In this document: piece by piece, positions 28,034-31,274 of the stretch
How the letters are laid out: each line of letters opens with the position of its first letter
Numbering within the stretch: the stretch's first letter is position 1
Source of the DNA: Candidatus Acidiferrum typicum
GTDB taxonomy: Bacteria; Acidobacteriota; Terriglobia; Acidiferrales; UBA7541
Assembly (NCBI GenBank): GCA_025463055.1
Contig: JAOAPV010000045.1
Location: forward strand, 1 to 48,203
Reading direction: 5' to 3'
Length of the DNA: 48,203 nucleotides
Program-made: the position numbers and the translations under genes
The notes under the pieces: model-generated
Told to the model about the DNA's origin: nothing
The model's database searches: none
Seen by the model: the letters and a program-made list of their open reading frames with translations, nothing else

Positions 28034-28107
28034 CGGAACGGTGTACGCTGGCCGGAATGTCTTCCTTCGCGCTGGATTCCTCGGTTTAGAGATAAGCTAG
28101 ATTGAAC

Positions 28108-28914
28108 ATGCGATTTGATCTCATCACGATTTTTCCAGAGTTTTTTGCGGGTCCGCTGGAGCACGGAATTGTGCGGCGGGCGCGCGAGGCCGGTTTGATT
28201 GACGTGCGCGTACAGGATTTACGGGAGTTCACGAAAGATCGGCATCGCACGGTGGATGATCGTCCTTTCGGCGGCGGGGAAGGGATGGTAATGAAGCCGG
28301 AGCCGCTGTTCGAGGCGGTGGAATCTTTGCTCGGGCAGAGTGTAGGGCAAGGCTCGGGATTAGAGTCGCCAGATTCTGGGACGGCGATTGTGCTGCTGTC
28401 TGCGGCAGGCAAGCGGTTCACACAGGAAACGGCGAGGCGCTACGCTGGGCTAAATCGGATGGTTTTTATTTGTGGGCGGTATGAAGGCGTGGACGAGCGT
28501 GTGGCCGTGCACCTGGCGACGGAAGAAATTTCTGTGGGAGATTTTGTTTTGAGCGGCGGGGAGCTGCCGGCAATGTTGGTCGTTGATGCGGTGACGCGGT
28601 TGTTGCCTGGGGCGCTGGGGAACGAGGCCTCAGCGCAGAATGAGTCGTTTAGTGGCGGCGCTGGCAACGCGTTGCCAACAGGGGCGCAACATGTTGCGCC
28701 CCTACAAGGAACCGGAGATCGGGCTCGGGATGGCGACGACCGAAATGGATTGCTGCTGGACTATCCGCATTACACGCGGCCGGCGGAGTTTCGCGGATGG
28801 GCGGTGCCGGAAGTTTTAATTGGCGGGAACCATGCCGAGGTGGCGAAGTGGCGGCGGTCGGCGGCACTCGAGAAGACGCGGCGGAACCGGCCGGATTTGC
28901 TTTTGCGAGGTTGA
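28108..28914 (+). CDS. trmD: tRNA (guanine-37-N1)-methyltransferase TrmD, with in-frame palindromic insertion
   Basis: 268 aa from ATG-28108 (an upstream TTG adds two residues). SPOUT-family features: [11 protein letters not shown] start, [43 protein letters not shown] and the C-terminal LDYPHYTRP. TrmD methylates G37 of tRNAs, preventing +1 slippage, and is usually essential. In most species the ESF segment runs almost directly into the [11 protein letters not shown] segment; here roughly 29 residues (about 184-212) are inserted between them. Their coding DNA carries two perfect palindromes (28663-28676 and 28681-28702). The frame is intact, so the enzyme probably still works. Confidence 0.94.
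28663..28702. repeat. Double palindrome inside trmD (probable mobile palindromic element)
   Basis: A perfect 14-bp palindrome (GGCAACGCGTTGCC, 28663-28676) is followed after four bases by a perfect 22-bp palindrome centred on CATG with GGGGCGCAA arms (28681-28702). Both share GCAAC/GTTGC arms. They coincide with the part of TrmD absent from ordinary family members. Confidence 0.75.
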
Positions 28915-28923
28915 TTGGCGCGA

Positions 28924-28929
28924 TATACT
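28924..28929 (+). promoter_or_regulatory. -10 box of the attenuator transcript (near-leaderless start)
   Basis: TATACT (28924-28929) lies only 9 bp before the ATG at 28939, so a transcript from it would start at or within a few bases of that ATG. A leaderless message would explain the lack of a ribosome site. The -35 is poor (TTTTGC or TTGCGA about 15-17 bp upstream, inside trmD). Confidence 0.45.
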
Positions 28930-28938
28930 GGTAATTCG

Positions 28939-29070
28939 ATGAATCGCGCTACGCAATGCGATAACTTCGGGACGGCGGCGACCAGTTTTGTGCCCCAACC
29001 AGCCTGCGCTTGTTGCCGCTGCGCGTGTATGTGTTCCGCAATTAGCGGCACAGGCGATCCTGCGGTGTAA
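28939..29070 (+). CDS. Cys-rich leader peptide of a predicted cysteine attenuator
   Basis: 43 aa, ATG-28939 to TAA-29070. The N-terminal part is unremarkable (MNRATQCDNFG), the second half carries a C-A-C-C-R-C-A-C-M-C run: six Cys codons in ten (29005-29034; UGC and UGU mixed), then SAISGTGDPAV. Short upstream frames with Cys runs are known in mycobacteria and relatives to stall ribosomes when charged tRNA-Cys is scarce. Here the stop codon is 26 bp before a GC-rich terminator, the right spacing for transcription attenuation. The downstream genes fit sulfur metabolism. A role as a modified-peptide precursor for the neighbouring ATP-grasp enzyme is the main alternative. Confidence 0.65.
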   Translation: MNRATQCDNFGTAATSFVPQPACACCRCACMCSAISGTGDPAV

Positions 29071-29122
29071 GGTCAGTTGTAAACCAGCAAGATCCGGGCC
29101 GCTCGCGATGAGCGGCCTTTTT
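29014..29122 (+). promoter_or_regulatory. Transcription attenuator: alternative 1:2, 2:3 and 3:4 pairings
   Basis: Segment 1 TGCCGCT (29014-29020) lies within the Cys codons. Segment 2 AGCGGCA (29044-29050) pairs with it over 7 bp, or by its AGCGGC part with segment 3 GCCGCT (29098-29103) over 6 bp. Segment 3 is also the 5' arm of the terminator, pairing with segment 4 GAGCGGCC (29110-29117). A ribosome paused early in the Cys run would cover 1 and free 2 to sequester 3 (antitermination); one reaching the stop at 29070 would cover 2 and allow 3:4 (termination). Confidence 0.6.
29097..29122 (+). terminator. Intrinsic terminator arm of the attenuator
   Basis: GGCCGCTC (29097-29104), loop GCGAT, GAGCGGCC (29110-29117), then five T (29118-29122) and a further TTTT. 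It lies 29 bp before the ATP-grasp gene and must be read through for that operon to be expressed from upstream. Confidence 0.8.
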
Positions 29123-29151
29123 GATTTTCGGACGTCAAAGTCTGAGGGTTT

Positions 29152-30183
29152 ATGAGCAAAGCGACTATAGGGACCGGCAACAGCGAATCAAGACCGATTG
29201 CGATTTATTACGAGCAGCCAAACTGGTTTGTGCCGCTGTTTCAACAATTGGACGCACGCGGCGTGAATTGGGTGAAGCTGGACGCGCGATATCACCAGTA
29301 TGACGCGGCGTCGCCCGAGCGGAAGTATTCACTGCTGTTCAATCGTATGAGCCCCTCGGCCTGGCAGCGCGGCGTGGGGCACGGGATTTTCTATACGCTA
29401 AATTATTTGAAGCACTTGGAAGATAAAGGCGTGCGGGTGGTGAACGGATCGCGCGCCTTCAGGCATGAAACTTCGAAGGCACTGCAACTTGCGCTGCTCG
29501 AGAGGCTCGGACTGCCGTATCCCAAGGCGCGAGTGATTAACCATCCCTCGCAGGTGGTTACCGCCGCGGAAGCTGTCGGGTACCCGCTGATTGTGAAGCC
29601 CAATATCGGGGGCAGCGGGGCGGGCATCAAGCGATTTTCTTCGCGCGATGAATTGCAGGCCGCGGTCGATGAGGGCGGCTTGCAATTTGGTATTGATAAC
29701 ACGGCGCTGGTGCAGGAGTGCTTCACGGCACGAGACGGGATTATCACGCGCGTAGAAGTTCTTGGCGGAAAATATCTGTACGCAATTCAGATTCACATTA
29801 CCGGCGAGACGTTCGACCTATGTCCAGCGGACATTTGCAAGAGCACGAAAGGCGAGGAGCTGACGCGGATTGCCTGTCCGGTGGACGCGCCGAAGACAGG
29901 CATGACGGTCGAAACGTACGATGCGCCACGGCAGGTAATAAAGAAGGTTGAGCTCATCATGCAGAAGGCGGGAATTGAGGTGGGCGGTGTTGAGTATGTG
30001 ACCGACGAGCGCAGCGGGCGACAGATGTATTACGACATTAACGCGCTTTCTAACTTCGTGGCCGATCCAGAGCGCATGCTGGGCTTCAATCCTTATGGAC
30101 GCTTGGCGGATTTCTTGATCGCAGAAGCGCGAATTCACGAAGGGAAACAGACGGCGGTGGTGGCGGCAGGAGAAAAGTCATGA
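29152..30183 (+). CDS. ATP-grasp ligase (RimK/glutathione-synthase-like)
   Basis: 343 aa, GAGGG three bases before the ATG. ATP-grasp features: a nucleotide-binding lysine segment PLIVKPNIGGSGAGIKRF (about 147-164), ALVQECF, and a metal-binding end EYVTDERSGRQMYYDINALSNFV in which the conserved E/D and N residues are kept. The N-terminal pre-ATP-grasp domain (IAIYYEQPNWFVPLFQQL, FNRMSPSAW) resembles RimK-type amino-acid ligases that join a carboxylate to an amine. The substrate is unknown. It overlaps the monooxygenase gene by 4 bp (ATGA), so translation is coupled, and lies behind the Cys attenuator. Confidence 0.85.
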   Translation: MSKATIGTGNSESRPIAIYYEQPNWFVPLFQQLDARGVNWVKLDARYHQYDAASPERKYSLLFNRMSPSAWQRGVGHGIFYTLNYLKHLEDKGVRVVNGSRAFRHETSKALQLALLERLGLPYPKARVINHPSQVVTAAEAVGYPLIVKPNIGGSGAGIKRFSSRDELQAAVDEGGLQFGIDNTALVQECFTARDGIITRVEVLGGKYLYAIQIHITGETFDLCPADICKSTKGEELTRIACPVDAPKTGMTVETYDAPRQVIKKVELIMQKAGIEVGGVEYVTDERSGRQMYYDINALSNFVADPERMLGFNPYGRLADFLIAEARIHEGKQTAVVAAGEKS

Positions 30184-31223
30184 GATACGGATACTGGCTA
30201 CCGGTCTTTGGCGGATGGTTGCGCAACGTCGCGGATGAAAACATGCAGGCCACGTGGCCGTACGTGAAGCGGCTGGCACAACGCAGCGAAGAAATTGGAT
30301 TCGATGTGACGCTCATTGCGGAACTAAATCTGAACGACATCAAGGGAGTGGAAGCTCCGTCGCTCGATGCGTGGTCGACCGCGGCTGCGCTCGCGGCGGT
30401 GACCGAGCGGATCGAGTTGATGGTGGCGGTACGGCCAACGTTTCATTTGCCGGCGTTGCTTGCGAAACAGGCGGCCAACATCGATCACATCAGCGGATGT
30501 CGGCTGACGTTGAACGTGGTGTCGTCCTGGTGGGCGGATGAGGCACGCAAATACGGCGTCGGATTCGAGCAGCATGATGATCGTTATGCGCGAACGGCTG
30601 AATGGCTCGATGTGCTGAACGGAGTATGGTCGCAAGACCATTTTTCGTTTTCTGGGAAATACTACAGAGTTGAAGACAATGTCCTGGAGCCGAAGCCGCT
30701 TTCGCAGCCGCGTCCGACTTTGTACGCTGGCGGGGAATCGTCCGCAGCGAAGGAATTGATCGCCGAAAAGTGCGACGCGTACCTGATGCACGGCGATCCG
30801 CCAGAGCGCGTTAGAGAGAAGATCGCCGATTTGCGCGAACGGCGTACCCGCCGTGACCTCCCGCCGCTAAAATTCGGCGTAGCCGGATATGCGATCGTGC
30901 GCGAAACGGAGCGGGAAGCGCAGGATGAGCTGCGGCGAATCACGGACGTGCAGCAGTCCGCGGCAGGCTATGCGAATTATCAGCAATGGCTGGCAGGTAC
31001 GCAGCTTGAGCAGCGCGTTTCGCTCGAAGATTATTCGGTCTCGAATCGGGGCTTGCGCTCGGGGCTAGTGGGCACGGCGGAGCAAGTGGCCGAGCGTGTG
31101 GCACAATTTGAGGCCGTCGGCGTCGACTTGCTGTTGCTGCAATTCAGCCCACAACACGACGAAATGGAACGGTTTGCGGAAACGGTAATCCGAAGGCGCA
31201 GCGCGGCTTCCGCGCTCGCCTAG
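30180..31223 (+). CDS. FMNH2-dependent LLM-class monooxygenase, SsuD/SfnG-like
   Basis: 347 aa. Bacterial luciferase-like TIM barrel. Segments such as YGYWLPVFGGWL, SWWADEARKYGV, HDDRYARTAEWLDVL and PTLYAGGESSAAKELIAEKCDAYL parallel the alkanesulfonate monooxygenase SsuD, with the same order and spacing, and the opening also recalls dimethylsulfone monooxygenase SfnG. Members release sulfite from organosulfur compounds for sulfur supply. No flavin reductase (SsuE) or ABC transporter is adjacent, so reduced FMN must come from elsewhere. Translationally coupled to the ATP-grasp gene. A GCTCGC/GCGAGC hairpin spans its stop codon (31214-31232). Substrate inferred only from family. Confidence 0.85.
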   Translation: MRYGYWLPVFGGWLRNVADENMQATWPYVKRLAQRSEEIGFDVTLIAELNLNDIKGVEAPSLDAWSTAAALAAVTERIELMVAVRPTFHLPALLAKQAANIDHISGCRLTLNVVSSWWADEARKYGVGFEQHDDRYARTAEWLDVLNGVWSQDHFSFSGKYYRVEDNVLEPKPLSQPRPTLYAGGESSAAKELIAEKCDAYLMHGDPPERVREKIADLRERRTRRDLPPLKFGVAGYAIVRETEREAQDELRRITDVQQSAAGYANYQQWLAGTQLEQRVSLEDYSVSNRGLRSGLVGTAEQVAERVAQFEAVGVDLLLLQFSPQHDEMERFAETVIRRRSAASALA

Positions 31224-31245: not shown

Positions 31246-31274
31246 TAGGCAATTCGCGGGAATTTGCCTATAAT
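31246..31274 (+). promoter_or_regulatory. Sigma70-type promoter of rplS
   Basis: -35 TAGGCA (31246-31251), 17-bp spacer, perfect -10 TATAAT (31269-31274). It lets rplS be expressed independently of the attenuated operon placed upstream. Confidence 0.6.

Follow-up and report, generated by a model that had tools for sequence, protein, structure and literature searches.

A predicted cysteine-codon attenuator upstream of an ATP-grasp/monooxygenase operon in Acidobacteriota and a Cys-ending leader ORF of the same operon in Bacteroidota

Genomic context and anatomy of the leader

The window, i.e. the whole stretch of 48,203 nucleotides from Candidatus Acidiferrum typicum that was analyzed, contains between positions 28102 and 31742 a pair of overlapping genes, encoding an ATP-grasp protein and a monooxygenase, that sits between trmD and rplS; the same order was found in many loci of the same genus. 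The trmD and rplS genes are usually neighbors. In the window, trmD (28102-28914) ends just upstream of the leader region studied here, and further neighbors are genes that we take to be khpA, rimM and, after the monooxygenase gene, rplS. A promoter-like site at 31246-31274 lies upstream of rplS, and the attenuator proposed below therefore need not control this gene. The features of the locus, all on the plus strand, are as follows.

28903-28908, plus strand: weak -35-like TTGCGA, followed by a 15-nt spacer (from sequence)
28924-28929, plus strand: -10 box TATACT of the predicted leader promoter, with ATG 9 nt downstream (exact check)
28939-29070, plus strand: leader ORF of 43 codons, MNRATQCDNFGTAATSFVPQPACACCRCACMCSAISGTGDPAV, with ATG at 28939 and a TAA stop at 29068 (exact check)
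29005-29034, plus strand: predicted regulatory codons CACCRCACMC, six Cys in ten codons (exact check; conserved in relatives)
29014-29020, plus strand: segment 1, TGCCGCT, inside the Cys run and able to pair with segment 2 (exact check)
29044-29050, plus strand: segment 2, AGCGGCA, 5' arm of the antiterminator (exact check and relatives)
29056-29070, plus strand: 5' arm of the stop-codon hairpin, which extends the antiterminator and contains the TAA stop (exact check and relatives)
29081-29094, plus strand: 3' arm of the stop-codon hairpin (exact check)
29097-29104, plus strand: segment 3, 5' arm of the terminator, GGCCGCTC, with segment 2 as alternative partner (terminator scan, exact check)
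29110-29117, plus strand: segment 4, 3' arm of the terminator, GAGCGGCC (terminator scan, exact check)
29118-29122, plus strand: T run (TTTTT) of the intrinsic terminator (exact check)
29152-30183, plus strand: ATP-grasp ligase-like gene, RimK / D-Ala-D-Ala ligase type (family models)
30180-31223, plus strand: luciferase-like FMN monooxygenase gene, SfnG/SsuD-like (family models, PDB matches)

The -10 box 9 nt before an ATG, the 43-codon frame with its six clustered Cys codons, and three alternative pairings followed by a T run had been described for this region in an earlier note, and all of them were recovered exactly. TGCCGCT of segment 1 pairs perfectly with AGCGGCA of segment 2, AGCGGC at 29044-29049 pairs with GCCGCT at 29098-29103, and GGCCGCTC pairs with GAGCGGCC directly before TTTTT. 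An additional hairpin (29056-29070 with 29081-29094), absent from that note, lengthens the antiterminator and encloses the stop codon. The Cys run is separated from the stop codon by 11 codons, and a seventh Cys occupies codon 7 of the ORF.

The terminator scan found one site in 700 bases against a shuffled mean of 0.8, which is not significant alone, and no covariance model of Rfam 15 matched the window at its gathering score. The -35-like TTGCGA of the predicted promoter had no match in the consensus promoter scan; TTGCGC or TTGAGA, as read by eye, stands 16 nt upstream of TATACT in four relatives of the same genus. All five own-genus loci examined have TATACT followed 9 nt on by ATG or GTG (no shuffled control was made), a gap that suggests a near-leaderless mRNA, and a pair of the TTGAC/TANNNT type lies upstream in 8 of 13 leaders of other clades (without a chance control). 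A near-leaderless start is thus probable, as inferred from these motifs without transcript-start or ribosome data. The poly-Cys leaders of mycobacteria are reportedly also called leaderless, in the title of a 2020 paper by Canestrari.

The ATP-grasp protein is weakly similar to RimK and D-Ala-D-Ala ligases, under the cut-offs of the NCBIfam models listed for it. The monooxygenase had been called SsuD-like in the earlier note, which is a fair description; its best NCBIfam model, however, is SfnG (265 bits, not reaching the cut-off of 383), with the SsuD models next, and its PDB matches are chains named luciferase-like, alkanesulfonate and dimethylsulfone monooxygenase. Ten genes neighboring the operon, inspected in seven loci, included none recognized as a sulfur gene, and no function can therefore be assigned by neighborhood.

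Distribution of the leader in Acidobacteriota

Of the 399 genomes available for the class, 128 have the ATP-grasp gene. Upstream DNA was examined for 110 of the 131 matches to this gene, the other 21 being left out except one of genome G265; we added all nine genomes of one genus of another family and the best 80 of 572 named relatives. The relatives, including these best 80, are named as Candidatus Acidoferrales or Acidiferrales, gp2 MAGs, Candidatus Angelobacter, and Terriglobia and Acidobacteriales bacteria. A GCCGC..GCGGC terminator with a T-rich tail was found upstream of the ATP-grasp gene at 27 loci after deduplication. This number excludes L175, which was caught by the terminator expression and has no Cys ORF. 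Two further loci, L120, missed by the expression because of a longer loop, and L290, raise the leader set to 29 distinct loci. These comprise nine genomes of the same genus, six genomes of other genera of the family, two members of family f10, all nine genomes of genus g75 and three named MAGs. At all 29 loci a short ORF, in most cases carrying a Cys run, has its stop 21-36 nt upstream of the terminator, and the 10-codon window richest in Cys begins 88-117 nt upstream of it.

The covariance search was performed with a model, R1, in which the terminator stem is the only structure and which otherwise represents mainly sequence. It was retained despite this limitation because it still separated the locus within its own genome, with one strong site of 65 bits and the next site at 23 bits. 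At E <= 1e-5, R1 matched 20 of the 399 genomes of the class at one site each, all just upstream of the ATP-grasp gene. Nineteen of these 20 matches are training sequences. The twentieth, in G265, was not used for training and carries the motif MCACPCCMAM; it is only a modest test since its genus is shared with the training sequence L048. With a model built in this way, weaker relatives upstream of other genes may have escaped detection. Searches of viral contigs yielded 38 pattern matches with no relative among them.

The occurrence of the leader is patchy. Among own-genus genomes the ATP-grasp gene is present in 27, of which 18 gave no R1 match. Upstream DNA was examined for 17 of these, and in 16 of them trmD ends 50-220 nt before the gene, the remaining one (L026) being without a trmD match; no terminator was found at 16 of the 17 loci, and one (L066) has a weak 5-bp hairpin. 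In family f11 (Acidobacteriaceae-type) no leader was found at the loci examined outside genus g75 and the three named MAGs. A rapidly built tree places the rows that have a leader on several branches, so there was repeated loss or repeated gain of the element, or a mixture of the two. This tree has many open forks, the 30 most distant rows were dropped from it, and it labels three Bacteroidota loci (L230, L234, L240) as having no leader despite their Cys-ending ORFs.

Two side observations concern loci outside the leader set. A conserved stretch resembling a palindrome, TCTAAA-TTGAGATATTAGA, lies some 80-90 nt before the ATP-grasp gene at five loci without the Cys leader (L037, L042, L046, L050, L163); it may serve as operator for a protein regulator in place of the leader. 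In a MAG labeled Cyanobacteria (L177), VMCTCACCCLEAP occurs at about -165 before the ATP-grasp gene, and this is perhaps a further independent Cys leader.

Conservation of the Cys run

Chance is an unlikely source of the Cys run in the window. Among 75,961 stop-free 10-codon windows in the six frames of the whole window, that of the leader is the only one holding six Cys codons, and none of 3000 dinucleotide shuffles of 28939-29150 reached six in ten codons, with a maximum of five. The leader uses four TGC and three TGT codons for Cys; the corresponding counts for the window's ATG-started frames of 250 codons or more are 92 TGC and 17 TGT.

Cys runs in the relatives include ACACCRCACMC, ACACPCCVCMC, ACACRCCCMC, NMAMCCCMCMC and SMAMCMCMCCC; outside the run the leader peptides differ between clades. 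The comparison covered 163 distinct ATP-grasp loci, each with 250 nt or more of upstream DNA. At least four Cys in ten codons were found at 24 of 27 loci with the terminator versus 7 of 136 loci without it, the latter counting L175 (Fisher 2e-19, not corrected for relatedness). Conversely, the terminator is present at 24 of the 31 high-Cys loci; of the seven lacking a terminator call, L120, L154, L158 and L177 are leader-like and L040, L182 and L199 are not. The p-values are too small because the sequences are related, and the presence of the terminator is not an independent result since loci were picked by it.

Among the leaders with few Cys codons, L029 and L030 have three each in the densest window, and L014 retains the hairpins and has only two. 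Most Cys codons of L014, upstream of its ATP-grasp gene, read Arg (ACRRRARCR), and a suggested reading is a decaying or re-targeted leader. Near the Cys run (14-codon windows of 27 leaders) Cys makes up 128 of 378 residues, and Met, with 58 of 378, is the second commonest residue; some leaders may therefore sense both sulfur amino acids.

Terminator and antiterminator structures

The structural significance of the leader comes from the set of relatives and not from the window alone. Folding of the whole window leader gave a z-score of -0.52, with 53 of 200 shuffles at least as stable, and its antiterminator alone was not significant (z -0.86, p 0.17). When RNAs ending at the 5' arm of the terminator were folded, 26 of 27 leaders paired at least five of the seven nucleotides of this arm with upstream sequence; shuffled leaders did so in 30-71% of cases. 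The antiterminators had a mean z-score of -2.33 against shuffles, and p <= 0.05 was reached in 20 of 27 leaders, with L115 and L156 just under this value. In the other seven (L001, L004, L027, L030, L048, L056 and L152), which include the window, p exceeded 0.05.

Covariation was scored on alignment A3, consisting of nine own-genus leaders and L028, with the structure taken from one of its ten rows (L008). In A3, 77.8% of the antiterminator cells are paired. Five pairs are changed on both sides, a number equaled or exceeded in 11 of 500 shuffles, and the covariation score of 0.167 was reached in none of 500 shuffles (mean 0.118); sliding the structure along the alignment lowered all values. 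The number of pair types showed no excess over shuffles (136 of 500). In two other leaders, L029 and L058, a long antiterminator hairpin is likewise formed from a quite different sequence. The stop codon lies inside the antiterminator, as TTCGGTNTAG in seven of the ten rows and as TGCGGTGTAA in the window.

Conservation of the Cys run and of the pairing segments in related Acidobacteriota had been proposed as a check of Cys-codon attenuation in the earlier note. The run, the terminator and the antiterminator are all conserved over several genera and families, and this comparison supports attenuation.

We also calculated pairing probabilities of the antiterminator for different ribosome positions, at equilibrium, without folding kinetics and with an assumed footprint of 14 nt ahead of the A site. 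The mean probability is 0.84 for the free leader (0.85 in the window) and 0.88 when a ribosome occupies the first, second or third Cys codon of the stretch (0.86-0.99 in the window). It decreases to 0.67 with a ribosome at the last Cys (0.77 in the window) and to 0.36 with one at the stop codon (0.28 in the window). The antiterminator thus falls mainly with a ribosome at the stop codon, so a ribosome at the end of the ORF probably permits termination, and stalling upstream would keep the antiterminator. These computed values suggest that the off-switch is the stop codon, which lies within the antiterminator, a point absent from the earlier note. In the earlier proposal an early stall frees segment 2; the hairpin of segments 1 and 2 does not appear to be the main switch, given the values for the free leader and the stop-codon ribosome.

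The helix of segments 1 and 2 was considered as the off-switch and given up, as equilibrium pairing gives it no support. It is present in the window, can be drawn in some relatives and is unneeded in the pairing computation. Its pairs were listed and not scored because MAFFT misaligned the Cys region, with codon-sized gaps.

A second leader of the same operon in Bacteroidota

ORFs ending in six to seven Cys codons precede the same operon in named genomes of Pontibacter and Nafulsella. Of 150 genomes in the family to which one Pontibacter genome belongs, 44 have the ATP-grasp gene, and 31 of the 45 matches to it were examined. A SAM riboswitch (RF00162) was found upstream of the operon at 30 of these 31 loci and also in Nafulsella, giving 31 distinct riboswitch loci; the exception, a contig of Pontibacter pamirensis (L219), has neither a riboswitch nor a Cys tail. 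At these loci (L211-L241 and L165) the SAM riboswitch is followed at once by the Cys-ending ORF, for instance after the aptamer at 1021-1123 of L211. The chosen ORF starts 6-12 nt past the 3' end of the aptamer at 30 of 31 loci and at -1 at the other. ORF starts were chosen for the most Cys at the end, and the exact starts are uncertain. The last ten residues contain three to seven consecutive Cys in 29 of the 31 ORFs (no shuffled control), while L215 ends in CCFC and L234 in CCWC; the ORF of L235 ends CCCCCWLA. Beyond the Cys-rich end these ORFs have little in common, and they stop 195-362 nt before the enzyme gene.

Six such genomes contain 36 sites with four Cys codons followed by a stop, versus six sites for the reversed pattern. 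Of 30 sites scanned among these 36, eight have a SAM aptamer and 22 have none. Five of the eight belong to the ATP-grasp/monooxygenase operon and three to other genes: an O-acetylhomoserine sulfhydrylase/cysteine synthase gene in L256 (684 bits, cut-off 495) and transporter genes of the Na+/H+-antiporter family in L246 and L270. Since the composite of SAM aptamer and Cys-ending ORF also precedes a sulfur gene, the Cys-ending ORF, and thereby the ATP-grasp/monooxygenase operon, is tied to sulfur metabolism independently of the window. The sulfur role that the earlier note had assumed for the operon is backed by these riboswitches. A riboswitch scan of other phyla and leaderless Acidobacteriota covered 32 named loci from the best 80 of 572 relatives. 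A SAM aptamer was confined to the five Bacteroidota loci that have Cys tails, and the other 27 loci, including Pontibacter pamirensis and six Chitinophagaceae/Chitinophagales loci, had no riboswitch before the operon.

Because relatives in two phyla share the logic of a Cys leader, the two uncharacterized enzymes probably help the cell to obtain sulfur when cysteine is short. This role, which we infer to consist in releasing or recycling sulfur, is assigned by association.

Proposed mechanism and alternative explanations

We are highly confident, in the absence of expression data, that the region 28924-29122 acts as a ribosome-mediated transcription attenuator, through which the ATP-grasp/monooxygenase operon is controlled in response to charged tRNA-Cys. 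Transcription from the promoter at 28924 would yield a nearly leaderless mRNA, of which the leader ORF would be translated at once. With plentiful Cys-tRNA the ribosome would clear the Cys run and arrive at the stop codon at 29068, where it would cover the 5' arm of the stop-codon hairpin and crowd segment 2. The antiterminator would then be blocked, and the terminator hairpin of segments 3 and 4 with its T run would end transcription. When Cys-tRNA is scarce, the ribosome is predicted to stall within 29005-29034 and to leave segment 2 and the stop-codon hairpin free; these could join segment 3 in a single long antiterminator, which would let RNA polymerase enter the operon. Both the stalling and the direction of the response to cysteine are inferred.

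Alternatively, the ORF could be a Cys sensor with control exerted mainly by translation coupling or Rho, the hairpin being less important. Such control has already been proposed for the actinobacterial poly-Cys leaders, for which the available part of the source reports no obvious terminators (PMC1262725). Likewise, none was found by the terminator test at the five named Bacteroidota loci with Cys tails, and the Bacteroidota ORFs stop far from the enzyme gene. The Acidobacteriota terminator, however, has a T-rich tail, a fixed spacing from the ORF and a conserved antiterminator, and we consider a different switch at this locus unlikely.

A small Cys-rich ORF next to an ATP-grasp gene also brings to mind a functional product, either a RiPP precursor or a metal-binding peptide, that is modified by the adjoining ATP-grasp and flavin enzymes; the ATP-grasp protein weakly matches TIGR04187, an ATP-grasp ribosomal peptide maturase (22 bits, cut-off 350). 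We regard this as very unlikely, as the peptides look unrelated between clades outside the Cys run and a terminator separates the ORF from the enzymes, while the Bacteroidota ORFs, with little in common besides their Cys-rich end, follow SAM riboswitches and once precede a homocysteine/cysteine synthase gene. Scarcely credible is an ordinary terminator of the trmD operon combined with a Cys-rich frame arisen by chance. The element does directly follow trmD, and a single terminator-like site in 700 bases differs little from the chance level; but terminator and Cys ORF also occur where the DNA examined has no trmD match (e.g. L029-L031 and L115-L117), their spacing is fixed, and the Cys run is not due to chance.

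Comparison with known systems

Classical trp-type attenuators combine regulatory codons, mutually exclusive antiterminator and terminator structures, and the ribosome position as signal. The window leader is predicted to follow the same three principles and differs by its Cys codons and by the stop codon inside the antiterminator; moreover, its free form is predicted to favor antitermination. Of the features that define an attenuator, a cluster of codons for one amino acid and an intrinsic terminator before the first structural gene are present in the window itself, and an evolutionarily kept antiterminator exclusive with the terminator is established through the relatives. By mode of action the element belongs to the leader-peptide transcription attenuators, among which Cys attenuation with an intrinsic terminator is already described before cysS in Rhodobacterales, according to the accessible portion of PMC8632094. 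Poly-Cys frames were cited in the earlier note for mycobacteria; this cysS case indicates that Cys leaders are not confined to that group.

The Rhodobacterales element, uORFC-8-2, resembles the window leader in that its short upstream ORF contains Cys codons and that it has stems and a U run, the latter compatible with an intrinsic terminator; ribosome-mediated attenuation has likewise been proposed for it. As far as the available text of PMC8632094 describes it, uORFC-8-2 has a tandem of two Cys codons, mostly at positions 14-15, and lies before cysS of Alphaproteobacteria. The window leader differs in having up to six Cys in ten codons and in its RNA, gene and phylum; it precedes an ATP-grasp gene in Acidobacteriota rather than cysS in Rhodobacterales, and is thus not a member of this group. 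The actinobacterial poly-Cys leaders of cys and cbs genes are similar in that a short ORF with a Cys run precedes sulfur genes, with the run near the stop and, in the part of PMC1262725 at hand, no conserved terminator. With 11 codons between run and stop and a terminator present, the window leader does not belong to them; the Bacteroidota leader resembles them more, judging by the same part of that source. The metL leader before metNIQ in Streptomyces lividans is alike in its leaderless peptide, mixed Cys and Met codons and sulfur amino-acid operon, although it is annotated as a Met leader and, as the available sections of PMC8079986 have it, lacks a typical intrinsic terminator. In open-licence literature we found no description of the ATP-grasp/monooxygenase operon or of Cys attenuation in Acidobacteriota.

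Biological implications

Through the leader, an uncharacterized operon of several phyla gains a testable function, namely sulfur supply under cysteine shortage. The chances appear even that one sulfur operon is read out by way of Cys codons in two phyla, through two leaders that are unrelated and arose separately, one with an internal Cys run and a terminator/antiterminator pair in Acidobacteriota, the other in Hymenobacteraceae with a SAM riboswitch whose 3' end lies some 6-12 nt before a Cys-ending ORF. The repeated combination of SAM riboswitch and Cys-ending ORF in Bacteroidota would join two sulfur signals in one 5' region. If true, the Hymenobacteraceae leader would act as a device with two inputs, SAM gating translation of the leader and the leader then sensing cysteine.
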